Positions 2 through 55,040 of a stretch of 64,000 nt of DNA are shown piece by piece. The stretch is from Romanomermis culicivorax (taxonomy: Eukaryota > Nematoda > Enoplea > Mermithida > Mermithidae): assembly GCA_963922205.1 (NCBI GenBank), contig CAWUHX010000139.1, positions 868,001 to 932,000 of the forward strand. Direction: 5' to 3'. The notes beneath the pieces are model-generated. The model did no database searches. It saw only the letters and a program-made list of their open reading frames with translations, and was not told where the DNA came from. Position 1 is the first letter of the stretch; each line of letters begins with the position of its first letter. The position numbers were made by a program, and so were the translations under genes.

Positions 2-2098
2 ATACACTATTGCCAAGCACTCCCTTTCCGTGGCTGACCACTTTTTCTCATCCGCCTTTAAAATTCTGCTATTATAAGCAATTACCCAGCGGTCTGACTT
101 GGTCTCCTGGTAAAGGACTGCTCCTAGTGCCGTTCCGCTGGCATCTGTCTGAAGGACAAAGTCCCCAGACCCATCCAAAACCGGATACCTAAGGAATGGC
201 ACAGACAATAGTGCTTTTTTCAGGCTCCTAAAAGCCTGATGGTGAACCTCCGTGATTTCCCAAACACAGTTCTTCCCAGTTAATTTATACAACGGTTCAG
301 CGTGTTTAGCCAAACCTGGTATGAACTTTTTACACCACTGCAACATACCTAAAAACCTTTGCAGTTTACGTTTAGACTCTGGGAATGGGAAATCATTTAT
401 AGCTTTGACCTTTTTCGGATCTGGGGAAACTCCATCCGAATTTAAGATATGTCCTAAAAAATGAACTCTCTCAGGCAAGAATTCACACTTCTCCGGCTTC
501 AAGGTCAAATGAACCTTTCTTAGAGCTTGCAGGACTAGCTCTAGATTAACTAGGTGTTCTTCAAACGTATTTGAGAACACAATAATATCGTCTATATAGA
601 CTAGACAGATTTTCCAAACATATGGATGCAAAACTCTTTCCATCATACGCTGGAATTCGGCTGGCGCATTTTTTAGGCCAAAGGGCATGACTTTAAATTG
701 ATAAAGCCCTTCTTGGCATATGAAAGCAGTTTTTTCCTTGCTTTCTTCATCCATTGGCACTTGCCAATATCCTGATTTGAGATCTAAGGTAGTATAAAAC
801 TTGGCTTTACCTAAACAGTCTAGATAGTCATCCATTCTAGGAATGGGATACTTATCATCCTTGGTAATGTCATTTATACCTCTAAAGTCCACTACTGGTC
901 GCTTGGTACCATCCTTTTTACCTACTAGAAATAACGGAGCTGCCCAAGGCGACTTTGATGGCTCTATTACACACTTTTTGAGCATATCTTGCACATGCTC
1001 ACGAACATGTGGCCGTAAATTTATGGCAGTCCTGTGGTACCTTTTGGCCACAGGGGCTGCATCGCCTATATTGATTTTACAGGTCAGGTAGGGCGTAGTA
1101 GTTGGCGGATCATTGGGCAAGCTGAACACGTCTCTGTATTTTGCGAGACATCGTAGAGCTTGTTCCAGTTGCTCTGATGGTATGTTGGATTTAGCCAGCA
1201 TATTGTACAAAGCTTCCTTGAATGCTTTCTCCTCTGATTGAGGAGCTTCAGGTCTAGCTTGAACTGCACAAGTTTGCAGCTTCTCCAGATCCTCAACTAT
1301 TTTCCCCTTGAGTTGATCTTGGTTATCAGTATCACACAACACTGAATTAGTATGGCCAATTATTTGATTTCTTTTCAAATGGCATCCTGATCCTGTGTTG
1401 TTGGATACCATAACAACAAAATCCTCTTTTGTACCATCTACTATGGTACTATCAATGTGGAACCTTTCTTCATTCTGTTCAGACTCTACTATGATTCCAT
1501 TAAGGCGATTTTCGCCTACCTTATCCCAAAGTTTTGCCCTCAGCAGTATATCAGTGCCACTAGGTAAGTAGATAGGATTCACACTCACCACTGGCACTGA
1601 AACCTTTAACAGGCAAATCTTTGGCTGATACTGGTCGGCGGCGCTCATTGTGGATTCCGTGGCGCTCGTGGTCATGACCTCTCCACAATTCGATTGGGGC
1701 TGGTCCGGCGTCACGTATATCCGTTGTTGGTGGTTGTTGAGCGTCATCGTCCTATTCCTGAAATCTATTATGGCTCCTACCTGAGGGTGAGCCAAAAAGT
1801 CTGTTCCTACAATTACATTTTCACCTGCTTCAGGTATAACAATTGCTTGTACGGGGAACTGTCCACACAATGTATCCATCCTAAATTGGATATACCCATG
1901 GGCTTGGACTGTCTTACCGTTGGCTACAGTGACATTTAATATCCTGGGATATTCAGTGTAATCCGGGCCCAAGGTTTCTTTCAGAAACTTAGCCGACATG
2001 ACAGTGCACTGAGCTCCTGTGTCAATTAGAGCCATTGTCTTACGACCTCCTATAACAACCTCAATATGGAATGGGGCTGTTCTGGGGTACGTATCCAG
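2..2098 (-). CDS. pol: gypsy-A pol: aspartic protease, reverse transcriptase, start of RNase H (partial at window edge)
   Basis: About 699 codons are open without a stop from 2098 to the left edge, in the same frame as gag. In order: a retropepsin with the active-site triplet Asp-Thr-Gly-Ala at about 2012-2023; a linker; reverse transcriptase with the FYTTLDLKSGYWQVPM block and the catalytic YIDD at about 585-600; and the beginning of RNase H with its first catalytic aspartate in QTDASG near 138-150. This order is that of Ty3/gypsy pol. There is no methionine at the start. The frame follows the gag TAG directly, so translation is presumably by stop-codon read-through. The rest of RNase H and the integrase lie beyond the window. 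No damage is visible in the part seen. Confidence 0.88.
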   Translation of the reverse strand, partial: MDTYPRTAPFHIEVVIGGRKTMALIDTGAQCTVMSAKFLKETLGPDYTEYPRILNVTVANGKTVQAHGYIQFRMDTLCGQFPVQAIVIPEAGENVIVGTDFLAHPQVGAIIDFRNRTMTLNNHQQRIYVTPDQPQSNCGEVMTTSATESTMSAADQYQPKICLLKVSVPVVSVNPIYLPSGTDILLRAKLWDKVGENRLNGIIVESEQNEERFHIDSTIVDGTKEDFVVMVSNNTGSGCHLKRNQIIGHTNSVLCDTDNQDQLKGKIVEDLEKLQTCAVQARPEAPQSEEKAFKEALYNMLAKSNIPSEQLEQALRCLAKYRDVFSLPNDPPTTTPYLTCKINIGDAAPVAKRYHRTAINLRPHVREHVQDMLKKCVIEPSKSPWAAPLFLVGKKDGTKRPVVDFRGINDITKDDKYPIPRMDDYLDCLGKAKFYTTLDLKSGYWQVPMDEESKEKTAFICQEGLYQFKVMPFGLKNAPAEFQRMMERVLHPYVWKICLVYIDDIIVFSNTFEEHLVNLELVLQALRKVHLTLKPEKCEFLPERVHFLGHILNSDGVSPDPKKVKAINDFPFPESKRKLQRFLGMLQWCKKFIPGLAKHAEPLYKLTGKNCVWEITEVHHQAFRSLKKALLSVPFLRYPVLDGSGDFVLQTDASGTALGAVLYQETKSDRWVIAYNSRILKADEKKWSATERECLAIVY

Positions 2099-4741
2099 CT
2101 AATGTTGTTCCTGAGGAGTAGCAGGTGTGCCTCTCCTCACTACTTGTATTGATGGTACTATAGGTTGTCGTGCAATTGCATTCATTTGCACAATACTACC
2201 TAATACAACATTTGGGCAATCCACTCTCTGATTTACTTCACCTACAGGACTCATTTGTGATTGCCTTGCAACCATCACACTCGAATAATCCTTTTGGGGT
2301 GGCTGATTTGTGAATTGACCCTGTTGCAGAGTCTGAGTCGGACCCGTAATAGCCTGAGGTGGCTGAGGTTGCTGTATTGCAGCCTGTTGTTGATATTGCT
2401 GCATCTGTTGGAACTGCTTCTGCAGCTCCTTTTGCCTTTTGAACTCTAGGAACTCGTTGTAATCGGAGTTCTGTAAATAACTCTCCTGGCTATCCTGATA
2501 ACCTGAATAGCCTACATTATACGCACCTCTACCTCTGCTATTAAAGTTGGCATTTGGGTAACCTCCTCTACCTCTATAGTTACCTCTAGCAAAAGTGTTG
2601 AAGCTTCCCCTGTTGAAGGTAGGGAAGCTGGCTCTACCTCTGCTCCTGCGCTCGGACAACACTCTCAATGTCCTGCAGTCTGCAGTATTATGTGTTATGT
2701 TCTTATGGAACTCACACCATGGCTTTGTCGGATCTCGGGAAACTTGACCTCCCTGACTAGTACTAGGTATGGCCACATCAGACCGATTTTCCATTTGCCT
2801 GTTATCAACCTTTTGCTGGAGCTGGTCGAACCTTTCGACTAGTTGTACCATCTCTTTAGAGATTTTTAATAGAAGAGATTCTTTCTTACCTTTTTCGGTC
2901 TGAGCCCTAGGGGCTTCCCGAACTGGAATCTCCTCTATCTCAGGAGAATCACTCCTTGACCTTTGGATTTGGGCCTGTACCTGATTACCTACAGTTTGAT
3001 ATGGTTGCCGAAACCTTTGCCTCTGGCCTTGTTGATATCCTTCTGACTGGTTCCTAGCAACTACGGCAATTTCAGGATCATGCCCACTAGGCATACCTAC
3101 TTCATTAATTACTATAGGATCCTGTTGTGTACCCTTGGGTCCGTATCTCTGGAAGGCATTCTTATATCTACGTTCAATGTCATGAACTTCAACTGCTAGA
3201 TCATACCAAGTTCTAAAGGTATGTTTTGAATTCTTAAGTTCCGACTGGAACGTGGGGTCACTCTTATATATGAAGGTGTCAATGATCAGTCTCTGTTTAG
3301 ACTGATAGTCCAAATCGCCTTTAACTAGTTCCACTAATATACTGACCCTTTTTAAAAACTCTACGGCCTGTTCATTGGGTCTTTGTTGAATCTCAAATAA
3401 CTCCCTGGTTAACATTTCCAGGTTACATTCAGGTGCAAAGACATTTATAATGGCTCTCCTGGCTTCCCTATAGGTCATGTTGTCTCCTGCAACAGCCTTC
3501 GGTCTACCCTTGGAAAGCCTCAGCAGTGCTTCATACTTAGCTGATTCGGGTGTATCCCTACGGAATTCCCCTTCGAGTGCTGTTAAGAAGCTAAGCACCT
3601 GCTGATTTACCATACCCTCATCTAAAAGTTTGGGTAACACACCTTTAACGATATTCCTAACTACAATCTCTTGTGCCAAATTATTTGATGGCACCTCCCT
3701 CCGATCATAAGCTGCTGTTAACACTGGATCAATATCAGAGTTGAGGGATTGCAGCATAACTCTATTTGGATCTCGTTGAGGTGGTACACCTCCTTGATTT
3801 GATGGCATGGGGTCTCTGTCAAACCTGTAATCCCTATATGGGAAACATGCCAGTTGATCTGGTCTAAGGGTATCTGGATCAACTATATTTCCTCTACCAT
3901 CATAGACCACTCTTGTTAAAGTTGGATGCTGCGAAGCTATCTGATTTGGGTTTCTGAAGTCTGCTGATTGCTCAGCTCCCTCGAATCGAAAATCTCTAGC
4001 TGGACCTCTCCAACTTTTGGGCTCAAAGTTAAGCCTTTGCCCTTCATCGATATCAGGCCTATTACTAGGCCCTGCGCCTGCATTCATTTCAGCAGTGAGA
4101 CGGTTGTCTCTTTCTGCACCCCTAACACATGGTCTAACCTGTCTATCCGGCTCCTGTCCGCGCCTGTCGGCTTCCCTTTTATTGTCCTCGGTGGCGGCAT
4201 TCGCGATTATGTCGAACAAGGCTTCGACGGTCCCTTTCAATTCGCGTAGCTGCGTCGCCAACTCTTGATTGGACATCTCAGGAGCTCTTTCCTGCGGTTG
4301 GAATCGCTCTTGTTCCTGGGGGATCCTCTCTAATCGTTGATCGATTTCGGGGTCCCTTTCTTCCAAATTTGGTCGAATCTCGGGCGTAATTACGTCCCTT
4401 TTCGGTCCTGCTAATTCGACCTTTGGCGGCGGTGACCTTTTGACATTTCGCTGCGGCGGTCCATCGGCGTCTGGGTTCGGATTTGCCAGGCCCGCCTCCT
4501 GCGGATCGATGGCAATCACTGGTGGTCGGTCAATTGGTACGCCTGCGTCTTGAGGGGTAAAATGCATTGCATTTTGCTGCAATGGCTGAACCCTCGCGGG
4601 AGTTTGATCTGGGATCACTGGGTCCGGAGCAGCATGCCGTTGCTGATCTCTGTCTCCCAAATTGACTAGATTCCCAGCACTCGCCACTCTGGGTGGTGAT
4701 CTACGTAAAGTATTACCTCTCGGTATCCTTTTGTTAGGCAT
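2099..4741 (-). CDS. gag: gypsy-A Gag polyprotein
   Basis: An 880-codon frame starts with MPNKRIPRG just after an A-rich leader and ends in TAG. The N-terminal third is polar, proline- and arginine-rich. A capsid-like helical region follows (roughly residues 340-560, with a FLTALEGEF segment and a second helical stretch around [11 protein letters not shown]). Near residue 690 there is a variant nucleocapsid zinc finger, [14 protein letters not shown], spaced C-x2-H-x5-H-x3-C rather than the classical CCHC. The C-terminus is rich in RG and Q. Gag of this size is long for Ty3/gypsy. It should form virus-like particles that package element RNA. The gene is intact. Confidence 0.85.
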
Positions 4742-5104
4742 TTTAAATCCTGCTAACTTTCTGTAGAAACCTGGAGGATTTTCTTTTCTCCTAGTCTGAC
4801 TACGAAGTTCCGTGGTAAGGAGTTAAAAGCCACCACTTGTTGTGCAGGTCTTTCCTTAAGAGGCGTAAGAAAAGATTGGGTCTGAACTGACCTGTTAGAA
4901 CTGATACCTTGGCTAAGCCTCGGTGATCTGTGCAACAGTCCGGTTATCCCCAGACCTACCACAACAAAGATAAACTTTGTTCTAAATACGGGGGCCTTAC
5001 CAAGGACCTCCGCAGTCTCCTAGATGAGACAAGGAATCCCCTCAGGGATAAACTTACTTGGGTATAACCCGAAAGGGGTTTCCCAAAACTTACTTGATGT
5101 AAGC
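4742..5104 (-). other. gypsy-A leader between LTR and gag
   Basis: About 360 bases of probable 5' untranslated leader (primer site and packaging region) precede gag. No gene is seen; a 69-codon frame at 4753-4962 has no recognisable content. Confidence 0.4.
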
Positions 5105-5440
5105 CGGCGCCTGGGCCTCTGGCCCTCCGCCTTCGTCGATGCGAATATTCTAAATAAATAAACGAATATATTAAACAATATGTCCGACGAATTATGCAAA
5201 AAGAATGTGGGTATACCACAGTGAATAACTCAATAAGAAAACAAGTTGCTGGGAAAATTGTATTTAGGGACGCCAGCAATAAAGTCAAAAAATAATAAAA
5301 AACTCGAATATCGTGAACAATGATTTTCACTATCACTTTCGTTCTTTCTTTGGCGCTCCATTCTATGCAAATGTCTGCGCCGCTGGTCGTCCCTGTCGTC
5401 GATTTGCATGTCGATTTCCCCACACGAATTGGCATCAACA
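5105..5440 (-). repeat. gypsy-A 5' LTR (inner boundary approximate)
   Basis: The minus-strand sequence starts with TGTTGATGCC exactly where BEL pol homology stops, as expected for an LTR terminus. It contains a TATA-like AT stretch near 5160-5190 and a GC-rich segment near 5105-5135. The inner end and the primer-binding site could not be fixed because the second LTR is outside the window. Short open frames here (for example 4956-5450, minus) look like chance. Confidence 0.5.
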
Positions 5441-6899
5441 GGGTGCCCAACAGACGAAGTTACATTAGCTGAAAGCATTTTGATCAAAGACGCACAAAAA
5501 CGATACTACCAAGACATTATCATAGACTTAAAACAAAATTTACAGATAAAAAGTCACAAACAATTGGGTTTAAAACTTGACAAATTGGGTTTCATTCGAT
5601 GTTATGGACGATTACAAAATGCAAACATGAACTACGATACAAAATTTCCTTTACTATTACCTCGACAAGCATTATTCACAAAACTTATCATTTTAGACAG
5701 ACATAAAAAGGTAATGCACTTTGGTGTAAACCATACATTATCAGAAATTCATAGATCTTACTGGATACCAAAAGGACGTACGGCTGTACAACAAAACATA
5801 AAACAATGTTTCATTTGTCAAAAATACAACAATGGGCCTTATCAATTACCTAAAATGCCTCCTTTACCAAAAGAACGTGTGATACAATCAAGACCTTTTC
5901 AATTTGTAGGCATTGATTACTTTGGACCACTGTGGGTTAAATATCCCACAGAAAAAACAAAGATCTGGGTTTGTCTTTTCACATGTTTAACAGTTCATGC
6001 CATACATTTGGAATACATCATTGACTTAAGTGCTATCACTTTTTTGAACTGTTTCAGACGATTTGTGTCAAGACGAGGTAAACCTGACAAAATTATCTCA
6101 GACAATGCGCCACAATTTAAACTTGCAAGAAAAGTACTGGACAGTGTTTGGAGTGATATTTTTATACATGAAACTGTAACATCATACTTTGCAACTAACA
6201 AAATAACATGGACATTAATAGTTGATTATGCTCCATGGCAAGGAGGTTTCTATGAAAGACTCATTGGTATCATTAAACAGGCACTGAAACGATGCATTGG
6301 TAGACAATTACTTGACTTCGAACAATTCATAACTCTCATACCTGAAGTTGAAGCAGTGGTCAATACACGACCATTAACATATCTACAAGATGATGTAACA
6401 GTACCTCAAATACTTCGACCAGTTGATTTTTTAATACCTCATTCACAAATTGGCACTCCATTGTACAATGAAACAATAGATGATCCTGAATATCATCCAC
6501 AACAATATCTTAATTCAGTTTTACAACTTACACAATACTGGAAAAGAACACAAGAAATACTTGATGACTTTTGGGGGCAGTGGTCAAACGATTACTTACT
6601 CAGTTTACGTGAACGAACTGCATTACATCACAAAACACCAAGAGTACATCAAACACTAGAACCAAAACAGAATGACATAGTTTTGATCAAAGACGAAAAT
6701 TTAACACATGGACAATGGAAACTTGGTCGAATAATAAAACTTAATCCAAGTGCAGACAATGAGATCAGATCCGCTGAAGTTGAACTTAGCAATAAGTCAA
6801 CACTCAGAAGACCAATTAGTCATTTATATCCACTTGAAATACCGAGTAACAGTGATAATTCAATTCAACCTGAACATGAAATAGTGAACGTTGTTTATC
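5441..6899 (+). CDS. pol: BEL/Pao integrase (3' part of pol)
   Basis: The open frame (5408-7297) enters from gypsy-A LTR sequence, so only the part from about 5441 belongs to BEL. It shows the HHCC zinc module (His near VMHFGVNHTLSEIH and Cys in CFICQK), an rve-type catalytic core with the first Asp in FVGIDYFGP and the second in IISDNAPQF, and the third acidic residue in GGFYERLIGIIK. It then has the tryptophan-rich C-terminal module (DFWGQWSNDYL, ending in HLYPLEI) typical of BEL/Pao. All three catalytic acids are present, but the gene has lost its 5' half to the gypsy-A insertion. The same frame runs on directly into the envelope signal peptide. Confidence 0.88.
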
Positions 6900-7936
6900 A
6901 GCCCACTTCGACATTAAAGCTTCAATCATTATTTTTGTTCATTTCATTATGCTTTTATTTTTTTACCTCAGTACATTGTCAAACTTTAATAACACGACAA
7001 AAAACTGTCAGTCATATGTGCAAAAGCTTTGATTTTCGTGCATTAGTTTATTCTCCGAACTGTGTCACAAATGGAATCGTAATTCAAAAAACAGACAATG
7101 AAAACTTATGCTTCTCAAAGGTCTCATGTCCAATTGGTCACTTAACAGCACAGGGCAAATGTGGAATAAAATGCCAATGCCCACAATGGGCCTATGACTG
7201 CTCATTTTACACTGGACTGTTATCAAAACCAGTTTCAAATCAAAGGACATACTTGAGCTATCAAAACCTAATATTTGTTCATTTAAACCAGATTTAAATT
7301 GTGACAGGACTCCAATACATATTCGACTAAATCAAATTCAGTTATTCGATAATACAACACATTTTGTCAAAGATCTACAACCTACATTTTCTACAACCAA
7401 CACTGAAGAATTTTTTTGTTATGGGGAGGGCGACTTTACAGTCGGAACACCTGAATACTGTGAAAATCACAAATGCTCAGCTTTTGGCAAAAAATTTTGT
7501 CTATACAATCAACATGACATTGTTAACTTTGTAAATGACGATGGACAAATCCCCATTAAAAGTTAGGGTTCTATTCCAGTTACAGTATACTATGCCAAAT
7601 CAAATCACAACTTTGACATCACTCAGACATGTAGCAACTGTACACTGTCTTGTACAATTGGTGGTATATCTATACACTTAGAGGAACATATTAGTTTCAT
7701 TGAAGTATGTTCAAAACCATTCTGTTACAAAATTAGTCATCCACAACTACATGAAACTGTACAATTTACACGTGAAATTATTATTAAACCATATGACGTT
7801 GACGTTTCTATATGGATTCATGGTGTACTTGTTAAAAAAATTAGCATTCACTGCACATCATTTCCGTATTGTGAAATTATCAACTGTTACATGTGCCGTG
7901 ATTTACTTTACAATCCACAGTGCACACCAAAGGTGA
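6900..7936 (+). pseudogene. env: BEL envelope, N-terminal (Gn-like) part, frameshifted and with a stop
   Basis: Directly after the integrase, in the same frame, a hydrophobic segment (SLFLFISLCFYFF, about 6930-6970) looks like a signal peptide, followed by a cysteine-rich ectodomain. The frame is lost by an indel between about 7230 and 7297; coding then continues in the frame used by the downstream Gc part. In that frame there is a TAG at 7564-7566. Beyond it cysteine-rich sequence continues to the membrane segment near 7.94 kb. The composition and position match the N-terminal glycoprotein of phlebovirus-type envelopes. It should have been a secretory-pathway membrane protein; it is now broken. 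Confidence 0.65.
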
Positions 7937-16012: not shown

Positions 16013-16691
16013 TGTCACTGCCTTTCTCAAGTTTTCGTGAATTACTGTAGATTTAGGTAGCAACTGACTAAAACTGGGGGTTTTGGTATTTATTCGATAA
16101 CTCACAGTAAATAAGGTGGATAAGGCAATAATTACAAAGGCGTGACAGAGGAGCGTGAGGGTAACCCATAGTGATTGGGCCTTAAAGATTGACACAAATT
16201 ACTCGAAAATAAACAGTCATTCTCCAGGTAACGGATGACAATTCGGAAGCAGGAAAATGGCTGGTATTGAAGCCCAAGTCCCGTAAAGTATAGGCAACGT
16301 GATTGTCTCAAACCAAATGTAAGTCGTTTCGAAGTCCAACAGACTGTAAGGTGCAATCCAGGGAAGTCCCCTAAAGACAAACCAACCAAAGCAGCAAGCG
16401 TAGTGGCCTAAAGTACCAAAAAACTAAAGACTGGCTCTTCTTTAAATTCCGAGTCGACATCCATGTTCTTGGGGTGTGGTTCTGGGAGCCCGGCTGTGCA
16501 TAATTAGTTTCCAAATTGTCAGAGGGTTCAAAACATATGAACCCATTTTTGTATTTTGAGGAAAAGTGTTTTTTGGTTAAGGATGTGCCAACCTTTCCGT
16601 TTCCAGTTGAGTTAATTACAAGTGCGAAAATATGTGTGACAAAAACAAAGTACTTGAAAAATAGTCTGGTTTCCAACCAGGAACCCAGACT
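16013..16691 (-). repeat. Partial gypsy-B-type LTR, opposite orientation
   Basis: This is the reverse complement of most of the gypsy-B LTR: the LTR end (...GTGACA) lies at 16013 and matching continues to about 16691 (block near AAACCAGACTATT), where it stops roughly 140 bp before the LTR start. No primer site lies beyond the end, so it is a solo or 3' LTR remnant. It faces the intact 5' LTR of gypsy-B about 400 bp away. Confidence 0.78.
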
Positions 16692-17097: not shown

Positions 17098-17902
17098 TGT
17101 CAAGGATTGTAAAAATTTGTATAGTTTTTGTGTAAGTTTTCGCAAAAATATATATTCTATTTATTCCTCATTTTCTCGTCACATGTACCGTATTAGAAAT
17201 CCATTAGTGTTCTCTATTGTTTTCAAGAGTCTGAGTTCCTAGTTGGAAACCAGACTATTTTTCAAGTATTTTTTTGTCACACATTTTGGCACTTGTAATT
17301 TACTCAGCAGGAAGCCGAAAGGTTGGCACATCCTAAAACAAAAAACACTTTTCCTCAAAATACAAAAATGGGTTCGTATGTTTTGAACACTCCGACAATA
17401 TGGGAACTAATTATGCACAGCATGGCTCCTGGAACCACGCCCCAAGAACATGGATGTCCACTCGGAAATTGAAGAAGAGCCAGTCTTTAGTTTTTTTGGT
17501 ACTTTATGGGACTATGCTCGCTGCTTCGGTTGGTTTGTCTTTATGCTACTTCACACGCTCCCACCTTACAGTCCGTTGGACTTTGAAAGGATTTATGTTT
17601 GGTTTGAGGCAGTCATGTTGCCTATACTTTATGGGACTCCGGCTTCGATACCAGCCTTTTCCCTGCTTCCAAATTGTCATCCATTACCCTGAGAACGACC
17701 ATTTATTTTCAAGTAATTTGTGTCAATCTTTTACGGCCAATAGCTACGCGCTACCCTCGCGCCTCTTTGTCATGCCTTTGTAATTATTGCCTTATCCACC
17801 TTATTTACTGTAAGTTATCTAATAAATACCAAAAACCCCAGTTTTAGTAGGTTGCTACCTAAATCTACAGTAATTCACGAAAACTCAAGAAAGGCTGTGA
17901 CA
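17098..17902 (+). repeat. gypsy-B 5' LTR (805 bp)
   Basis: Starts TGTCAAGG and ends GGCTGTGACA. The start matches the 3' LTR at 25563 and the end matches the inverted copy at 16013. AT-rich AAATATATATTC at about 17148 could be the promoter; AATAAA occurs at about 17820. Confidence 0.85.
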
Positions 17903-18232: not shown

Positions 18233-19400
18233 ATGCCTTTTCAAAATCCAGACCCACTTGGTCATGTTGTTCAGGATGCGTTAGCTGCAGTCTTGGATCA
18301 GAGGCTTCAAAATCTTGATGCCCAAATGAACAGAAAAGCTGCCCATACAGAATCAACCATGAATTAAATTCGAGTAAATCACCTGCGTGGTGACATGCTT
18401 TCTGCCAAAATTAACGATTTTCCGTTCTTTTCTGGGCTGCCCCATGAAAACTTTACCGAGTGGGCCAAAAAACTCGAAAAACAGATGATTTTGAAAGGGA
18501 TAAAAAACAAAGACGATCAGTTGAAAAGAATTTTTTTGGAGTTCCACCTTAAAGGTGATGCCCTCACGAAATTTGAAAATATTTCAAGCTCCGAGGATCC
18601 ACCCACTGACTATGAGCAATATAAAGTTGCTTTGGAAAGGGCATTCCCCAACCAACGGGACGCCCTGTTTCACAGACAAAGTTTAAAAGATTATAAGCAA
18701 AAGAGAACAGAAACAGTAACCGCATATTTCAATGAACTTGAAAAGATGGGAAGGCTTGCCTACCCTACTCTTGACAAAATTGCAAGAAACACGGTTCTTG
18801 AATCAATTTTTTCGATGGGTTTCAGGCGGACGTCCAAAAAGCCCTAAACTTTAAGCGTTTCCATAATCTGAATCATTTAATTGAAGAAGCAACTTTCGTG
18901 GAACAGGAAATTTTGCAAGATGGGGCCAACGTGGTCTTTTCCCCTTCGGCAAGGTATAACGTTTGGTTGCCAGAGCCTGTTCTTGCTTTGCAACCCTCAG
19001 GAAGTAATACAAAAAAAAACAAATCGATGAAATGAATGAAAAATTGAATAAATTATGCATACAGATGCAGCAAAACGTACAACAAAAACAACATGCCAAT
19101 AGAAAATCCATGACGTGTCATAGGTGTGGCAAGGTTGGTCATTTTGCCAGTGAGTGCAGGTCTAGATTGCAATGCGAAATTTGTGGGCGAAATGGCCAGT
19201 TAAAAAATGACTGCAAATCAAAATGCTTTCACTGTAAAAAATGGGACACAAGAACAGATTTTGTAGGCAGTTGAGAGATGCCGAATGCTACACATGTAAA
19301 AGAAAAGGGCACAAGAGCAACAGTTGCCCCCAAAAATCAAGAAATGCCCAAAATAACCTTCAAGGGTGCCCAAATGGGTACCCTCTTGATGGTGATGACC
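18233..19400 (+). pseudogene. gag: gypsy-B gag (capsid and multiple CCHC knuckles)
   Basis: The likely start is the ATG at 18233 (MPFQNPDPLGHVV). A TAA at 18365 interrupts, then the same frame (18395-18847) gives a retrotransposon Gag domain (FFSGLPHENFTEWAKKLEKQ, LERAFPNQRDALFHRQSLKD). A frameshift near 18830 and another stop near 19032 precede the nucleocapsid. Zinc knuckles: CHRCGKVGHFASEC; CEICGRNGQLKNDC, where the His is Gln; a third broken by a frameshift near 19240; and CYTCKRKGHKSNSC. Four knuckles is many for Ty3/gypsy. The protein would package RNA; it cannot be made intact here. Confidence 0.78.
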
Positions 19401-20045
19401 CTGATTTAGTTGCAGAAGTCAATAATTCATCTCAACATTGCTTTTTTGTACTGTCTTTATTATTGATAATGTTTGACGATGGGTCTGAATCACTTGACTA
19501 TGATGATTCACCAACCTCAACACCCAACGTAGGTGTGGGCCACCTGGCAAGTCAATCCCCTGACAGCCGCCCACCAACTACACCGTGATCATCGTGTTCT
19601 GATGATGAAACAGAAATAATACGAGTGGGCCAAAAAGAAAACCGAGCCCCAGGATTGGAAACACCACAAGTTGACAGCAACGGGCTGGACGAAAAACCAA
19701 ACGTGGCCCCGCCGCCCGACAAATATCGAATTCCAAAAATTCAAAGACAACCCAGGGTTCCATTATTGGAACCTGGCTCTTTGGAGCCAAAGGTGGCTGC
19801 ATTGCGAGAAAGAAGCTCCCCAAATGCCTATTTGGAGAGGGTTAGGTAAAATTGATCACAACAAAAGAAAGTTGCATGCACATATGATAAAACAAAAATT
19901 TTTTCAGGGTGTAGCGGAAATGACTGTTATTGCCCTTGTAGCGAATGCAAAGGCAAATGCACGCAGGCCAGCAAGAGCCGATGAAAGGCCACCAAGGCCA
20001 GAAAGGCACGATAAAATAAAGAAATTCGTGCAGCGATTTTTTTAA
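19400..20045 (+). other. gypsy-B linker between gag and envelope
   Basis: Two overlapping frames, 19625-19849 and 19671-20045, give proline- and charge-rich sequence. They may be the end of gag or a short extra ORF. No domain recognised. Confidence 0.35.
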
Positions 20046-21790
20046 ATTTTTGCATACTATTGTGTGTATTTTTGTGCCTCATGGTGGGCAGACAAATAAA
20101 AACCTTTCAACTTTGTGGAGTTTTGACCAGAGGGCATGCCATAGAAATCCCAAAAACTGTTGCATGTGTTAGGCCACCTTCAAGTGAAAATCCAACTCTT
20201 ATCACAGGACAGGTCTATACATCTTTGGCCAAACCCAAACATACCACAGGGTTCAAGTGTACTCTTCGGCTGCGAAAAATCTGTACACAAGTTGGGTTTT
20301 TCGGCTCAAAAAGTATAACTTTTGACCAAATTTCCATAAAAATTTTGACCCCTTTCGAATGCAAAATAGCAATGGAAATAAAAACCTTCCAGGGTCAGTC
20401 TGTGAATGAAACTACCTCCAGCATTTGGTCAACAAACAATAAACTTGACCTACAGTATAAGTGGTGCTGTTTCGATAACTGTCAAACAGTAGAAAATTTG
20501 ATTGTTGAAGAGGGACAAGTCCCCTCTTGGGACGGCAAGAATCTTATCAGCACCCTAGGAGATTTAGGCGGTTGTAAAGCAAAGGCCGGCCAGCCGGCCA
20601 TTGCGTCATGGCTGATGGTGTGGTACTGTGGGATGAAACCCCTTTATAAAAAATTTGTCCATTCGAACTCAAAAACTCGTACAAAATCAAAATAAGTGGG
20701 TCCCACATGATCATTGACGATATGCAAGCAGCATTTTTTGTTACAAATAACTGGTTTGACCACCCAAATTGCCCAGAACTCAAAAACGCACTTTACACCG
20801 AGCAGGGCATTGTAGTTCAGTTTGACCCATCAAATCTTACCCAAAGTGAATCCAGTAAACACATAAGCGCTCTTTATACATATAATAATGCCGAGTTTGA
20901 CCTCATAAATTTAAAACTCAATTTTCTTGAAGAAAAAATATGTAATTTTGAACTGCAAAGTTTTCAAAATGTGTGGAATGAACTTTGCCGCCAAGCCCAG
21001 CGCTATCTGGACTTGATATGGCAGTTGTTGCGCCTCGACGCAACCCTTGGAGCCAGATCTTTTCTCCAACGAACTGACATCACAGCACAATTTACAGGAG
21101 AGGCCATAACCCTATGGCCCAGTCATCAAATCAATGCGACTGTGGTGTATAAAAATCACAAAATTAATGGGACTTCCTTCAAAAATCTTCCCGTGGCGGT
21201 CAATAACAAACTCATGTTTGTGACCCTGGGTGGCACTGACCTCATGGAAGAAAGTCAGAAGGTCGACTGCAACCATATGCACATGCCCATATTCAAAATT
21301 AATAACACTCGGCAAAACCCATGTTAGCAAGCTCCCATTTGAAGTGATTTGGAAGGGCAACTTCACAGTATTCCATTTAAATGCACCACCCTTTTTTCAC
21401 GATAAGCTGGCAGCAGTGTCAACTAGTGTGACTTTTTTGAAACAGTACATGTACAAAACACACAACCTGGAACAAGTTGTGGACAGACTAATCAATTATA
21501 CATCAGAAATGTCCCTTCACTCCAGCTCCATGTATGAAGTTCTTTCAGGGAGTGGCCAAGCTCTTGGTCACACCCTTTCAGGGGCTGGTCAAGTTCTAGA
21601 ACACGTCATTGTCAGTACCCAACAAGGTATGACACAGGGTTTAAACAATTTTCTCAAAGGATGCCTTCAAATGTTGATTAATTTGGTGGTCATAGTGGCA
21701 ACTATAGTTGGAACCCTCTATCTGTGCTTTTGGTTAAAGGGAGGCTTAAACTTTACGAAACAAATGAGAAACATCACATATGAGCTACCA
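20042..21790 (+). pseudogene. env: gypsy-B envelope-like glycoprotein, class III (gB/chuvirus G)-like
   Basis: A hydrophobic leader (FLNFCILLCVFLCLMV, about 20040-20085) opens a cysteine-containing ectodomain in three frames broken by indels near 20650-20690 and 21300. At 20974-21120 the segment WNELCRQAQRYLDLIW ... LDATLGARSFL ... AQFTGEAITLWP has the pattern of the central helix region of class III fusion proteins of the herpesvirus gB/chuvirus G group. Potential N-glycosylation sites and a glycine/serine-rich stalk (near 21530-21610) precede a transmembrane segment at about 21668-21733 (MLINLVVIVATIVGTLYLCFW) and a short tail. Capture of chuvirus-type glycoproteins by LTR elements is known; this position is not usual. 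The family call is from motif pattern only. Confidence 0.6.
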
Positions 21791-21899
21791 ACAAGACCTC
21801 AAAATCAATCACAAATGCAACCCCTACCACCCAGTTTGGGTCGAGCACTCATAGAACTGGCAAATATGCAAAGTTCCTATACTACCCATAGATATATTG

Positions 21900-22678
21900 C
21901 AGTACCGGATCACCAAGCTCCTTTAGCCCTGAAGTTGGAATATATAAACAGCATGAAACTACATGATCAAAGAACCCCCGACATAAACGTAATTGTAAAT
22001 AAGCCGGTTCTAGCTAATGCCATGGTTGATTGTGGAGCTACTAACACAATAATCAACAAGAAAATCACCGATAAGATTGAAGATATTGAAATTAACCCAA
22101 CAACCATTGTGCCCATAGCAGCCAATAATTTGGGTGTGGAACTTGTTGGTTCGGCTTTCATCACTGTGCAAGCAGGCAAAGAAATCCAAACACTGTTAGC
22201 ATACTTACAAGAAAATTGCGCTGTTGACCTGCTTTTGGGTTCAAACTTCTTGTTTGGGTTTAGAGAATGGTCAATAAACAATGAAAAAAGCTTTATGTGA
22301 CTTGGAAACACCACCATCCCATGCACTGGCGTACAGTATCATTCCTTACGAAGATGTGGTGGTATTCATTTAGATCAAAATCTCATTTTACTGCCCCGTT
22401 TGGTTACCCAATTGTCGGTTCCTGTTTTGGACATGTATAAAGGCGTGCATGTGGTTCAGTTTGAACCCAGGGACGCCCAAGCTCAAAAAGTAGGAGTCTG
22501 TTTTACAGCTTCAGTTTCGCGGAATATTGAGGGCAGAGATCGAATTTCAGTTATGAATCTCCTAACCAACGAAATAAAGCTTTTCCAAAATACTTGTGTG
22601 GGCAGCATAAAAAATTCGTTTCAAAAACAGAAAAGATTCACAGCATACAACTTGAAGAAGCAAAAACTGAAAACATAA
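21900..22678 (+). pseudogene. pol: gypsy-B aspartic protease and linker, in frame with the envelope tail
   Basis: The frame 21230-22300 contains the envelope anchor and, about 100 codons later, a retropepsin: active site VDCGATN (Asp codon at 22028; Cys replaces the usual Thr/Ser) and the C-terminal hydrophobic-Gly motif LLLGSNF near 22226-22250. A TGA at 22298 interrupts, then the same frame continues to 22678 through sequence typical of the protease-RT linker. Having anchor and protease in one frame means either an envelope-protease precursor or separate expression by splicing or internal initiation. Confidence 0.72.
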
Positions 22679-22679
22679 A

Positions 22680-24177
22680 TGAAAAGCAAGATTTCAAGAA
22701 ATGGTTGGTTGATAATATCTATTTGACCAATACTGACCTCAATGAAGAAGAGAAAAACATGATTGTGGAAATTCTAGCCCAATATCCCAATCTGTACGCT
22801 GCATCGGACATGGGTCGTACTTCATTGTTGAACACACAATTGATACACAGGGTATAACACCAGTGAAACGACCCCTTTTTCATATTGCCCCCAAAGAAAA
22901 AGAAATAATTCAAGAAGAGATCAACAAACTTAAGCAAAGTGGGATCATCAGCAAAAGCCAATCCCCTTGGTGTACTAATACGATTTTAGTGCAGAAAAAA
23001 GATGGCGGTTACCATCTTTGCATCGATTTCCGTGGGTTGAACGATGTGACTAAAAAGGACACATACCCCTTACCTTGCATCAATGATATTTTTGATGCCT
23101 TGCGTGGTATGCGTTACTTCACAACCCTCGATCAGGCCAATGCATATTACACCATCCCCGTCGCGGAAAGCAATCGGGAAAAGACGGCATTCAATTGTCC
23201 TTCGGGCCTATACCATTTCAATTATTTGCCCTTCAGCCTATGCACTGCACCGGCTAGTTTCCAATGCCTAATGGACGTTCTTCTGTCGGGTTTACAATGG
23301 CAGACATGCCTTGTTTACCTGGACGACATTCTTATTTTTGCAAAAACTCACAAAGAAATGCTTACGCACCTAGATGACATTTTGGGCCGCCTGGACAAAG
23401 CTGGCCTTAAACTAAGGCTGGGAAAATGCAAATTCTCACAGTCATCTGTCCAATATTTGGGACACGTCATTAATGAAACCAGAATATTGCCCGATCCGCA
23501 AAAAGTTAAAGCAATTCTAGAAATTCTGTTCACAAGTTGCTAGCCCTTTCACAAAACTTCTCAAAAAGGATGCTATTTTTGAATGGGGCCCAGATCAACA
23601 AAACGCATTCAAAACTTTGAAAGCACATATCACATCGGCACCCCTCTTGCACAGTCCAAATTTTTCGACACCGTTCATACTCCAAAGAGATGCTTCCCTT
23701 CTAGGTGTGGGAGCTGTCCTTAGTCAATACGGGGATGATTCCTTGGAACATCCCATTGCTTTCGCTAGCAGAGGATTAAAACCTGCTGAAAAAAACTATC
23801 CAATAAACGAACTGGAAACTCTTGCAGTCGTCGAATTTGTGAATTATTTTCGACCATATCTTTTTCAGCAGGAGGTCATTATTCATACTGACCACACTGC
23901 GGTTAACACGGTTCTCACATAAAAGAACCTCAATTCGCGAATCGTTTGGTGGGGAGTTGCTTTGGCAAGTTTCAAATTTAATATTCAGCCCAAAGGGGGC
24001 TCGGCCAATAGAAATGCAGATGCAGTTTCCAGGTTCCCATTAAAAGATGCGGAACCGGCATTTGATATCGAAAATTTGGAAACTAGACCAGAATTAAATA
24101 CGTTAAACATCGAACCTGAAAACAGAACCCTTGCCCTTAGATATGGGCTTGAGGATGAAATTGACGAAAATCAGTAA
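22680..24177 (+). pseudogene. pol: gypsy-B reverse transcriptase and RNase H
   Basis: RT frame 22863-23543 shows QSPWCTNTILVQKKDGGYHL, the YFTTLDQANAYY block and catalytic YLDD at 23316-23327, all Ty3/gypsy-like. The preceding linker is in another frame (22594-22857). After about 23530 there is a deletion or frameshift, then RNase H (23617-23922) with RDASLLGVGAVLSQ, the ELETLAVV helix and HTDHTAV, ended by a TAA; the connecting part continues at 23962-24177. Confidence 0.82.
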
Positions 24178-24180
24178 ATA

Positions 24181-25540
24181 ATCAAAAACTTAGCGGAACT
24201 TCAACATTCTGACCACGACACGCGACAAATCATCAATGAAATTAATAAGGGTCCAGATGCAAAAATAAACGACCTTTACATCATCAAAAATAAACTTTTA
24301 TACCAGAACTTCGAAAACGAATATAAAGTCTATGTTCCAAAATCATTCCGCACAGAGTTTCTAAAATCACATCATGATAGCAAATTTGCAGGCCATTTTT
24401 CCTCCTGGAAAACTTATGGAAATGTGCGACAATGATACTTTTGGCCCCAAATGGGGAAATTCGTGGAAGAATATTGCCAAACGTGTCAAAAGTGCCAATT
24501 CAACAAGCCCACTAGACACGCGATCAAAGCGGATTTGGTTTCAGTTTGGGCTTCACAACTATTTGAGCGAATGGGATTGGACTGCATGGGTCCTCTCCCT
24601 ATTTCCAGCAATGGAAACTGTTATGTTGTAGTTTTTATCGACTATTTTACTAAATACATGGAAGCCTTTGCTACCCCTAACATAAGGTCACAAACAATCA
24701 CTTCTCTGTTTGTTGAAAAAATCGTTTGTCATCATGGAGCCCCAAAAATCATTCATTGTAACAGGGCTTCGGATTTCACAGCACATCTTTTTACAAATAT
24801 CACAAAGTCATGCAACACAGAAAAAGTACACACTACTCCTTATCATCCGATGGGTAAGGGGGAAGTAGAAAGGTGCAATCAAACCCTCGCTACCCATATT
24901 TGTATGTATGTGAATGAAAATCATTCAGATTGGGATGATTATCTTTCCTTCGCGGTATTTTCTACAAATGTTCATAAAAATGAAAGCATGGGTTACTCAC
25001 TTTTTCAACTTGTGTATGGGCGACAACCCTTGCTGCCATCCCATGCAACATTCAGTTTCCAAAAGCCACCCTGTATGGTTGATTTAAGCAAATATGCCAA
25101 CAAAATAAAAGATGACTTGTCAAAAGCATTCGAAAACATACAGGCCACCCTGTTGGCTTCACAAAATCGGTACTAAGAACAGTACAACAAAAAATCACAC
25201 AATGTAAAATATAAAACTGGAGATTTAGTCCTTCTGAAAACTAGACTCGTTCCTAAAAATCAGAGTCCTAAGCTGGTCTCCCAGCAGCACAGACTGTACA
25301 AAATCGTCAAAGTGGCATACCCAAATGTCGAAATTGAGCAGCCGGATACACAGAAAGTTCACAAAGTGCACGCTAATGACACTGTCCCTGCATCTCTGCT
25401 GTCCATCGTACAGCATCATCTGACTGGTCCAGCAAAGTTGAATGTGTCAGGCATCATCAACACTCAGTCGGCTCAATTTGGCGTCATTGCTTTAGTGGTC
25501 ACGGCCTCCAAACCACAAGAGAAGGTTGGGACCAAGGGCG
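24181..25540 (+). pseudogene. pol: gypsy-B integrase
   Basis: The HHCC module is present (HHDSKFAGHF ... YCQTCQKC) but contains a TGA near 24435. The catalytic core has Asp in GLDCMGP and Glu in GKGEVERCNQ. The second position reads IIHCNRASDF, with Asn where the catalytic Asp of the usual SDxG motif is expected, so this enzyme would be inactive. A TAA at 25174-25176 precedes the C-terminal module (KSHNVKYKTGDLVLLKTRL), which runs close to the polypurine tract. No chromodomain seen. Confidence 0.8.
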
Positions 25541-25550
25541 TTCGCCTTTG

Positions 25551-25562
25551 TAAGGAGGGGAA
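25551..25562 (+). other. gypsy-B polypurine tract
   Basis: AAGGAGGGGA directly precedes the LTR start TGTCAAGG; this is the plus-strand primer site. Confidence 0.7.
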
Positions 25563-26150
25563 TGTCAAGGCGTGTAAAAATTTGTATAATTTTTGTGTAA
25601 GTTTTCGCGAAAATATATATTCTATTTATTCCTCATTTTTTCGTCACATGTACCATATTAGAAATCCATTAGTGTTCTCTATTGTTTTCGAGAGTCTGGG
25701 TTCCTAGTTGGAAACCAGACTATTTTTCAAGTGCTTTGTTTTTGTCACACATTTTTGTCCTCGTAATTTACTCAACTGGAAACGGAAAGGTTGGCACATC
25801 CTTAACCAAAAAACACTTTTCCTCAAAATACAGAAATGGGTTCATATGTTTTGAACCCTCTGACAATTTGGAAACTAATTACGCACAGCCCGGCTCCCAG
25901 AACCACACCCCAAGAACATGGATGTCGACTCGGAATTTAAAGAAGAGCCAGTCTTTAGTTTTTTGATACTTTGTGCGACTACGCTCGCTGCTTTGGTCGG
26001 CTTGTCTTTACATGACTTCGCTCGCTCGCACCTTACAGTCCGTTGAACTTTGAAACAATTTATGTTTAGGTTTGAGGCATTCGTGTTGCCAATACTTTAC
26101 GGGACTCGGGCTTTGATACCAGCCCTTTCCCTGCTTCCAAATTTGGTTGT
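25563..26150 (+). repeat. gypsy-B 3' LTR, truncated
   Basis: Matches the 5' LTR from its first base to about LTR position 570 (CCCTGCTTCCAAATT). The last third is missing and replaced by short inverted LTR fragments. Confidence 0.8.
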
Positions 26151-44200: not shown

Positions 44201-47200
44201 CACAACATTGTGGCAAAAAGCTAAAAATTTTTTTCTATTAAATGGATTTCATGGTAATACAGGATAGCAGTGTATAACTGATACATCATCCATGAAACAC
44301 ACATACAAAAGGGAGGCCAAACTGGGAGTGTGCTGACTGCTGAGCTGACTCAAATTTTAGAATATTCAAACTTCATCCCCAACTACTTTTCTGACCTAAA
44401 AGTATGTTTTTAGTGCTATAATTCTGTTTGATGAGGGGTGTTTTTCCTCGTGCTGCAAGTTTTTCACCATTCTCAACATAATTTCACCATTCTCAACATA
44501 ATTTTTCTAAATTCTAGTCAACGAAAACTTTTTCAGACTCACACAAACAGCTCCAAGAAGTTACTGAAGTTCATTATAAAAAAAAATTTTATGTTAAATG
44601 TTAATATTTACTTAATACTTGCAAATATATTCTTCATATTTCTCTATAACCCCCCTAGTCATTGGCTCCATTATTATGAATGGGTTAAATGAATTTTAAT
44701 ATGCTGGAAGGATTACAACATTATTTTATCAAAACTCAAGACAGGGAAAGTAACTAAACTGTCAAGCATGTAGCTGCTTTGAATTCTGATAAGCAGAACA
44801 AGGCATATTCATTTTTTACAGACTATCTTGGATAATTTTGCCAGCATGAACGAATAGTTCCAGGCTGCAAATAGTGATCTGTTGAAATTAGTCAATAATT
44901 TAGTCAACTTTTACAAAAAGTGAGAATGTATTGATCGTCTTCAATTAATTTGAAGGATTACATGTTCTGGGATATTATAAAAAATTGTTGTACCACAGCA
45001 GCTGCTCATTGCCAGTACAACAAACTTACCTACATTGGATTTTACAAATCACTTGATGAATTCTTGGTCAGCTTTCTTTTTGTAGAATACCAGACGTTTG
45101 AAATCATTACCATTCCACAGGATATTACCATTGACAGAGCTACAATTACCAGTTGTAGCTTGAAAATTTCCCACATTTCTGAGGTCAGTAATTAAACTAT
45201 GACCATCAGAGGAAGTGTCTGTCCTTCCTCAAAGAAGAAGTTACTAACATTCTGTCATCCTTCACTACAACACTATTCACACCTCACTTGTAGTGTCTGA
45301 TTGGTGTGCCATAGGCCTGTAGACTTCTCACTGAATTTATGATTCTTGAATATTCTATTTTCATATTTTAATCAAAATTTCGTCTGTTTAATGGTTTTAA
45401 ATCCAAGAAATATAGTGAATGTGCAAACATTTTGTTCCCAGATAAAACACTGGTAAGCTTTGGTTGGGGCTGATGTATTTACTCAAAATGCATTTTTTCC
45501 TCTCTCTCATGATTGGTTTACACTCAACATTTCTGGGAATATTGATTGCAATGCCACTTCCTGACTGACCACATATATGGAATTCTTACTGATTAATCAA
45601 TTTTACTAGCCATAACATTAATGATATCACAGAAACCACATAGATTACATGATTATTTATTGGCATTGGCTTAATATGAGCGAGAATATATGTGAGCATA
45701 CCCAAAATTTGCATTTCCTTATATTGCAATACTTTTTTCTTCTTCAGAATCAATCAGACCCTCTTCATCCAGGTCATGGAAGAGCTCTCTGGCATTACTG
45801 ATGGGAAATTTCATTGCTGGTTCAGGCATCCTCTTTCTGTTGCTTGTATGTCTCTGTTTTCAAACCATTTGGGAACAAATTTCACATAAGCATTTCCTTT
45901 GTGTTTCCCTACCAGCAGAATGCCAAAATTCGCCTTCATCTAAAAAATCTCTCAGAGTTTCTTGTTAGTTTTGTATGATGATATCATGATTAGTGACCTA
46001 GCTGAATTTTGGAATAGTTCCTCAATATTGAAATTAACTATGCTTTCTATTTCAAATTCATAAAAAAAGGTGTTTTCTTTCCTAAAAATTATCCAGAACT
46101 GCCCATGAAAAATCCATTCAGCTCTGATAATCACTCTTTTACTGCATTTTTAACTTGATATTTTAATTCCACATGTCCTTTACAATTTTTCAACATGATA
46201 TCAAGTTCATTGAATTTTTCCCTGAACTCATTAATATCAGACCATTCACCTATGTTGTCTTTTGGTGGAGAATAGAGATCAAGAATCACATTTTCTATTA
46301 CATTATTTTCCAATAACCAAATAGAATATGATGGTTTTATTTTATTATCTGGGAGTCTACTGCTGTCCACTGGATTAGTTTTTGCATCATTATCTGTAAA
46401 TATATCACTATATGTGATTAACAATTCAGGTATAACCTCCATATCTCTTTTTATATCTAACATGTTACATCATTACCATGCAGTTTTTTCCAAAATGCAG
46501 TCCTTATCAACATCTGAAAAGTTCACATTAATGCCATATTTTGGACCTCTCTGGTGACTACTATAAAGCTGAAATATTTCTCATTACCTTGTCTTGAGGC
46601 CTTACAGTACTCTGCCTTGTGCCAATTTTTTCCCCACTTTTGACAGCTGACACCACAGAACTGTTCCAAATGTCAAACTTGTCAGCTATTATAACATATT
46701 TTTGTTGGGCATTCTTTTGTAAGATGAACACTTTTGGGTCATTATCCACATCTTTTGTCACTGATGATATTTCATGAAGATCTTCCAGCTGGGCCACTTT
46801 TTGTTGTAATTTCTCCATTTTTTCTTTCCCTGAATAATCAACAGCTACTACCTTATTATCCTATTGAGAAGAACCTCAATTGCTGCAGATTATAGGACTA
46901 ACATGTCTGTGCTATGCAAAAATGAAGAATCATAGACTGCAAATGAATTATCTTACTGGAAAAATTTTGGATCCTGATACTCTAGAGCATTGAAAAATGA
47001 ATCCTTCCAAGACCCATTTGATGATTAAAATTTCATTTTTCCAGCCTAATGCTGTTTATTCTGGAACAATCAGCTGATGACGACCTCATAACTACATAAA
47101 AAATCAGCTTGAGGTCAACAATGTTACATGAATTTGGGAGAACCAACTAAATTCATGAATAGACACCGGCACAAAACACCAAACTTTTTTGTAGTTTTGA

Positions 47201-53904: not shown

Positions 53905-54480
53905 ACTATTGTTATGGGGACAGATAAGGTACTCTTCAAAACCATTAGAGCACCTGACTTAATGGAGTCCAGCACAACAGTGCCTTGCTTACATAAACCA
54001 ATTGGGATCTTTAACTGTGGCAAGGAGTGGTCAACCCATTCTGGACATATCCACATCTTTCAAATACCTGCCAGCCTTCTTTGTAAAGCTCAATACAAAG
54101 TTCTTGATTTTAACACTCCAAGTCTATTGTAAAACCGAGTGACCTCTGCACTAAATATCTACTATGCACTGTTTGGACCACATGTTTAAAAACCCTACAA
54201 ATTAAAAAGATGGTAAAGCTTTTTGGTGAACTATACATCTGAAATCTCCATCAACCCAGTCGCAGTGTATCAAACAATAATAGATACTGGATCAGGTCTG
54301 AAAAAATCCATAGAAGGGGCTGAACACATTATAACTGGAACCCAACAAAGTTTTGCATCCCAAATGAATGTCTTACTCAAAGGTCTACTCGAGCTTATGT
54401 TCAACATATTTGTAGTTGCACTCATAATTTTATTCTTGGGTGTAGTTTTTGCTTCAATGATATTTGAGTAGAGGGAATAT
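53905..54480 (+). pseudogene. env: Envelope tail related to gypsy-B env (copy 2)
   Basis: PDLMESSTTVPC (about 53960) matches the gypsy-B segment TDLMEESQKVDC. The frame 54223-54471 has VNYTSEISINPVAVYQTII, TGTQQSFASQMNVLLKGLL and a membrane segment (FNIFVVALIILFLGVVFASM), aligned residue by residue with the gypsy-B stalk and anchor. The upstream ectodomain is degraded by stops near 54.13-54.2 kb. Confidence 0.7.
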
Positions 54481-55040
54481 TGTCATTCATCTCCCCCTTT
54501 TTCTATGTCTCCCATCAACCTTGGGACTAGGTGCAGCTCTGCTCAGGCTAGCAGAGCTTAGAACCAACCAGCTACCACACTACAGTGCTGCTACAAACTG
54601 CATCACTGCTATGTATGATATCAACCAAGTGCACCTGAGGAGGAGCAGTTATCTGCTATGATAGCATTCAATTACTGTTTGGGTGAGTTGAGGACCTCTT
54701 ACATTGATGTAAAGCTTAAAAACATATTTACAGTATCAGCTGAGTACTGAAGCTGTTTTCTCAATCGTTCACCATGAGTTGGCTTACCAGGTTGATGGCA
54801 TTATTGTCATCCCAACAAGCCTAAATCTTTTAATGCCAATGAACAACAAATCAGCCTCTTTGGTGCAGCTTATTTAACCATCCCAACCTATGACATTGAG
54901 GGAAAGATCATTCTTCACATACATGAGAACAGCACAATAGATCTAATCCAGAGAACAAAGTTTATTTCCCACTTCAAGAACATGCAATTTAATTGGGAAA
55001 GATCAACCATAACCTTCAAGGAAACCCTTGAAGTATGAGT
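54480..55040 (+). pseudogene. pol: Protease remnant following the copy-2 envelope
   Basis: After the anchor come SPLFLCLPSTLGLGAALLRL (gypsy-B: PLPPSLGRALIELANM), then TSYIDVKLKNIFTVSAEY at the place of the active-site strand, and EGKIILHIHENSTIDLIQRTKF parallel to gypsy-B AGKEIQTLLAYLQENCAVDLLL. The active-site triplet is lost. The order envelope-protease is the same as in gypsy-B. Confidence 0.6.

Follow-up and report, generated by a model that had tools for sequence, protein, structure and literature searches.

A gypsy-type retrotransposon family of the nematode Romanomermis culicivorax with a predicted envelope gene between nucleocapsid and protease

The element in the window

The DNA considered here (the window) is a stretch of 64,000 nucleotides of the mermithid nematode Romanomermis culicivorax (contig CAWUHX010000139.1, positions 868,001 to 932,000), and it contains an old, frame-broken gypsy-type long terminal repeat (LTR) retrotransposon with an envelope (env) segment between the zinc knuckles of the nucleocapsid (NC) and the protease. 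Intact copies of the same family elsewhere in the genome are predicted to encode, in one frame, Gag, NC, a signal peptide, Env with its membrane anchor, protease, reverse transcriptase (RT), RNase H and integrase, in this order.

In the window copy all features are on the plus strand. The 5′ LTR (17098-17675, beginning TGTCAAGG) was delimited as the stretch aligning with the 3′ LTR (25563-26143), to which it is 89% identical. The start of gag and its capsid part (18233-18847) were recognized from open reading frames and a PF03732 match at 18395-18844 (1e-6), with a stop codon before 18395, and are followed by the CCHC zinc knuckles of NC in two frames (19032-19390; Pfam CCHC match at 19032-19271). 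A signal-peptide-like segment (20016-20104), intact in relatives and broken here, was placed by likeness to lineage A, one of the ten env lineages described below. Env comprises an N-terminal part (20060-20695), which matches 18 of 18 relatives and alone has no Pfam match, and a core (20707-21327) matching Monjiviricetes_fusion (PF24664, at 20707-21324; 8.7e-12, 44.2 bits against a cut-off of 27). The membrane anchor (21668-21733, starting at approx. 21674) was located from the hydropathy of relatives. The retropepsin (21980-22297), in the frame of the anchor, has its D-C-G-A active site at 22028, and PF13975 matches the last third of 21230-22297 with 1e-5 and 26.4 bits, slightly below the cut-off of 28.2. 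Anchor and active site lie within a single stop-free frame (21224-22297), as the first-pass annotation had stated. They are followed by RT (22863-23540; PF00078, 6.4e-32), RNase H (23617-23922), recognized by likeness to the database proteins P0001 and P0002 (with a Pfam RNase H match in P0001), and integrase (24451-25176; PF00665 at 24451-25173, 8.2e-9). The copy is degraded, with coding pieces spread over different frames.

The order protease-RT-RNase H-integrase, which is that of Ty3/gypsy elements, is found both in the window copy and in P0002. The BEL/Pao domain DUF5641 is absent by Pfam from the pol pieces of the element and present on a BEL fragment elsewhere in the window. Next to the element lies an inverted LTR of its own family (16013-16691, minus strand), which is 87-90% like the two LTRs of the element.

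Copies across the genome

A search of the genome with the RT yielded at least 150 matches, and 53 of the 150 listed fall in open frames of at least 2,400 amino acids (aa). Eighteen relatives were fetched first, from several identity groups and mostly as long-frame copies, and in all 18 gag, the N-terminal part of env, its core, the anchor region, protease and RT follow each other in this order and in one frame. In 16 of them the stretch from gag to RT is fully open, the two interrupted copies being L025 and L026; the NC query taken from the window missed the knuckles in three of them (L016, L017 and L025). A harder sample of 20 copies with frames of at most 1,374 aa had env sequence directly 5′ of the protease in every case, L038 without the N-terminal part and core and L050 retaining the anchor end only; gag was in view in just one of these copies, L038. 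Among five further RT-anchored loci, four showed env and then protease, and L084 did not; a sixth, L087, had no env match. In total, env sequence immediately precedes the protease in 42 of the 44 RT-anchored copies. A further 11 loci at nine distinct places, selected through env matches or lying around them, all have the protease 3′ of env; two of these places overlap others, and the 11 loci stand outside the count of 44. Thus, the placing of env between gag and protease in the first-pass annotation is borne out by the order of Pfam matches in the window copy and by the 18 fetched relatives; in the wider sample, the junction of env with protease is kept in the 42 RT-anchored copies, and two degraded ones lack the env ectodomain.

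Env was found before the protease and not in the canonical position 3′ of the integrase. An additional 3′ env was considered for C41, the one copy that was followed end to end, and rejected: the only stop of its frame lies 10 bases before the 3′ LTR, which leaves no room for such a gene.

LTR pairs, beginning with TG, were present in 11 of 11 copies tested, and 4-bp target-site duplications in the three copies with both flanks in hand (3/3). The two LTRs were identical over the aligned 568-902 bases in seven of the 11 copies and 97.7-99.9% identical in the other four. The spread of the family was recent.

Nature of the env segment

In three relatives PF24664 scored 56-70 bits (cut-off 27). The matches to this profile cover only approximately 110-180 of its 653 positions. 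The profile was above its cut-off in all 68 genome places listed and matched none of 14 control genomes. In sequence searches of the PDB, all 21 matches of a lineage D env were to herpesvirus glycoprotein B (gB; best E-value, 0.0054), and seven of the 10 matches of the database protein P0008 were to gB (best, 0.014), the other three being caspase-6 with values of at least 0.85; a lineage E env had no match in the same kind of search. Sixteen cysteine columns are common to the env segments of 15 proteins, and env has a higher density of sequons and of cysteines than gag or protease-RT in five of five copies, with small margins in L009 and L013. From the profile and PDB matches, env is predicted to be a fusogen of the chuvirus/gB type (class III).

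In hydropathy profiles from gag to RT, all 12 copies examined show an anchor where env ends, and 10 of the 12 show another hydrophobic stretch immediately 5′ of env; the two lineage B copies (L013 and L014) were below the cut-off for it. With a shorter averaging span, a signal-peptide-like core was found directly 5′ of env at 10 of 10 loci from eight lineages, lineage B included; these calls are calls of hydropathy, made with no trained predictor. No start codon or methionine is conserved 5′ of this segment in the five lineages compared.

Lineages, trees and selection

Ten env lineages (A-J, G twice) were sampled in the genome, and all have env before pol. Gag was seen 5′ of env in lineages A-F, and the fetched stretches of lineages G-J showed no gag match. 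Env identity among lineages A-G is 34-60%. The distance from the end of env to the protease is approximately 45-55 aa in lineages A and E and approximately 385 aa in lineage H, where L081 (G000:C5) has an extra stretch between the two, with frames of approximately 3,100 aa.

Trees of protease-RT and of env agree on the forks supported at 83 or more in both, namely A+B+C, then E, then D, then F and P0001/P0002, then G, and differ in two weak places, within A-B-C and in whether F or P0001/P0002 branches first. Because the supported forks agree, env and pol appear to have travelled together within the clade. The env-less gypsy-A family, also present in the window, falls among the deep, weakly placed branches, the positions of the long branches (P0006, P0004, P0009, P0003 and gypsy-A) being unsure; therefore, one capture of env with later losses and several captures are both possible.

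Synonymous change is saturated between most lineages, so that the ratio of nonsynonymous to synonymous substitution rates (dN/dS) is given for L018 versus L024 only; L016 and L017 differ by too few changes. The ratio is lowest for RT (0) and for gag and protease (0.05 each), followed by the anchor-protease linker (0.11) and the env ectodomain (0.12), and is highest for the anchor (0.35 over 33 codons) and the NC-env linker (0.62). The ectodomain value, as obtained from this pair, points to purifying selection on env.

The protease motif is D-C-G-A instead of D-S/T-G in lineages A, B and C (L009, L013 and L015, one copy each) and in the window, and DSG or DTG in lineages D-H. Copies whose two LTRs are identical occur in each of lineages A, B and C.

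A lineage without the ectodomain

The lineage of L084 and L087 (C146/C239) has four RT matches (93-100%), and two of the four places were examined. In L084 gag lies near the protease with a signal-peptide-like segment still between them, the frames are shifted and RT contains a stop, so that this is not an intact env-less family. L087, 381 bases long, is 97% identical to the L084 junction and has no env match. The nearest other RTs (66-73%) belong to the lineage G group, which bears env in both members examined (L036 and L085). As these copies are degraded, keep the signal-peptide-like segment and have env-bearing nearest RT relatives, loss of the env ectodomain appears to be the simplest account. 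Gag joined to protease without env, which the first-pass annotation had regarded as fatal to its proposal if found in intact members, is thus approached in one lineage (two copies) that lacks the ectodomain; its copies are degraded and retain the signal-peptide-like segment.

Gypsy-A, the other candidate for an env-less relative, was rejected as a more distant family, with RT 41-47% identical to those of lineages A-G. This gypsy family (window 2-4822, minus strand), which is without env, has at least 138 close genome matches, many in 2,305-aa frames; tblastn found no env in the window copy, and its upstream open reading frame, with no Pfam family, is called gag by position only.

Relatives in other records

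Protein searches with the lineage A env region led to P0001-P0003, those with the P0002 env region also to P0004-P0006, and those with env alone to P0007-P0010. Gag, env, RT, RNase H and integrase are found in this order in P0002 (2,604 aa), P0004 (2,535 aa) and P0006, a 2,766-aa protein of Acrobeloides nanus, a nematode of another class. P0005 has gag, env and protease, and P0001, P0003 and P0009 have env, protease (or its Pfam domain) and RT. Alignment places the protease 3′ of env in P0002, P0005 and P0006; for P0004 the placement is by motif only. The env of P0006 is very divergent (19-24%), yet has the 16 shared cysteine columns; an insertion of approximately 200 aa in it and two protease-like motifs after it were also observed. 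The env-before-pol order is thus common to the ten genome lineages, to metagenome proteins and to the A. nanus protein.

Two further proteins bear the name of R. culicivorax itself, and resemble lineage A over parts of their length, P0007 in env (77-86%) and P0010 in env (74%), NC (64%) and gag (49%). P0008 and P0009, which bear the names of bacterial metagenome-assembled genomes, are taken for eukaryotic contamination; a search of viral contigs with P0008 gave 18 pattern matches and no relatives, and one of prokaryote contigs with P0009 gave 10 pattern matches and no relatives.

Other features of the window

A second, divergent copy of the family lies on the plus strand and consists of the C-terminal half of env with the anchor (53908-54489, with stops) and part of the protease (54835-55029), on the same strand and in the same frame number as its env. 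It is approximately 25-41% identical to the other lineages, and no RT was found 3′ of its protease part. The env-protease junction reported at 54-55 kb by the first-pass annotation is therefore real, though interrupted by stops. A lone, frame-broken fragment of the env N-terminal part of the same family is present at 45073-45639 (minus strand).

The BEL/Pao fragment (5324-7297, plus strand) carries integrase and DUF5641 and is followed in the same frame by a hydrophobic stretch and a tail rich in cysteines; the tail looks env-like by eye and has no Pfam match. An inverted repeat at 60569-60966 has arms of 188 bases, 99% complementary, around a 22-base spacer.

Proposed polyprotein and alternative explanations

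The single frame, the internal signal peptide, the conserved ectodomain, the anchor and the absence of further coding space point to a polyprotein with two passages through the membrane. The reading that we favour, and consider probable with some reserve, is that a single Gag-Env-Pol polyprotein is made from unspliced RNA and threads twice through the membrane of the endoplasmic reticulum (ER). The whole chain would be translated from one RNA, with Gag made in the cytosol; the internal signal peptide would direct Env into the ER lumen, where signal peptidase could cut Gag free, and the anchor would halt transfer. The protease, RT, RNase H and integrase would thereby emerge again in the cytosol, the protease then cutting the cytosolic enzymes loose. 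The position of Env between two cytosolic halves would work because Env has a signal peptide and an anchor of its own. With these assumptions, every component would come to lie on the membrane side required for a budding particle, and Env could serve cell entry.

Several points weigh against this scheme. The polyprotein is a prediction from DNA sequence, and one chain would yield equal amounts of Gag, Env and Pol, unlike in retroviruses. The signal segment of lineage B is weak, a structure model of P0008 built from five sequences has a predicted local distance difference test score (pLDDT) of 32, too low to confirm the fold, and the scan for splice sites was a rough consensus scan. Furthermore, one lineage lives without the ectodomain, so that env is not always needed.

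Of the alternatives, the most resistant is that splicing sorts the products, with env spliced out so that Gag-Pol results, or with a 5′ exon brought next to env, the polyprotein being only a minor product. Retroviral Env is made from spliced RNA, and candidate splice sites are present in each copy. Passages on the single-ORF elements BARE and Cer1 also describe splicing of their RNA (PMC3735527; PMC10309623). However, the scan found no acceptor or donor column common to three or more of the five lineages compared, and splicing around 20.0 kb, for which the first-pass annotation proposed a check, finds no support in conserved sites by this rough scan. Moreover, env continues into the protease without a stop, and a spliced env RNA would therefore still yield Env-Pol. 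By taking into account both sets of observations, sorting by splicing seems rather unlikely.

A second possibility is that Env no longer serves entry and is kept as a membrane tether, which would hold Gag and Pol at an internal membrane. The fusion of Env to both Gag and Pol, and the lineage that has lost the ectodomain, are consistent with such a role. However, a tether would require only the hydrophobic ends, whereas the ectodomain appears to be under purifying selection and its cysteines are kept across lineages, which makes the proposal improbable. Finally, an artefact or a single rearrangement of the window copy (the latter already deemed unlikely by the first-pass annotation), as its several broken frames might suggest, has practically no probability left, being refuted by recurrence of the order in 18 of 18 copies and of env directly before protease in 20 of 20 others, across many scaffolds, ten lineages, unrelated records and another nematode.

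Relation to known systems and significance

The textbook arrangement of retroviruses and env-bearing retrotransposons is gag-pol-env, with Env produced from its own spliced RNA, and in the known env-bearing Ty3/gypsy elements env is 3′ of the integrase. The present family resembles the latter (errantiviruses and their kin) in its LTRs, its gypsy-type protease-RT-RNase H-integrase order and the possession of env, and differs from them in that env stands before the protease and in the same frame. In the alphavirus structural polyprotein, a single chain begins with the capsid and continues with an internal signal, a glycoprotein and an anchor; the likeness is one of layout only, homology not being claimed, and no reverse transcription is involved there. 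Chuviruses (Jingchuvirales, Monjiviricetes) share the fusion glycoprotein family PF24664, a likeness drawn via the profile alone, but are negative-strand RNA viruses without RT.

Passages of a 2026 paper (PMC13172572) speak of insect gypsy elements with a class III env; on that mention the type of env is not new to gypsy elements, and what is new is its place between nucleocapsid and protease. Anakin, a mosquito BEL/Pao element, is described in part of another report as carrying a captured chuvirus glycoprotein, and is thus alike in having a chuvirus-type glycoprotein in an LTR element and unlike in its BEL/Pao pol; for Roo, Tas and Cer-7, the same passages give the position of env as after the polyprotein (PMC7642597). 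In passages of a follow-up study, Dezordi and colleagues (2023) report no clear case of Gypsy having captured a chuvirus glycoprotein; they also report two glycoprotein insertions in nematodes for which no element is named (PMC10084718). Cer1 of C. elegans, also a nematode Gypsy/Ty3 element, is described as having no stop between gag and pol and a spliced CERV protein, and the passages concerned make no mention of an env between these two genes (PMC10309623). Literature text searches turned up no account of an env placed between gag and protease; their coverage did not extend to Chary and Hayashi (2025), a work on env-carrying retrotransposons across animals that may bear on novelty.

A large and recently active clade keeps env inside the polyprotein, before the protease, and nematodes are added to the hosts of LTR elements with chuvirus-type glycoproteins. 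We would give roughly even chances to the broader proposal that these elements represent a distinct type of reverse-transcribing virus, ancient and still spreading in nematodes and perhaps in other animals, which would make one twice-threaded Gag-Env-Pol polyprotein with capsid and replication enzymes on either side of its own fusion spike. If the proposed polyprotein mechanism is right, it would be a second workable, splicing-free route from retrotransposon to enveloped virus, and would provide a directly testable case of how Gag, Env and Pol may be sorted and dosed across a membrane from a single chain.

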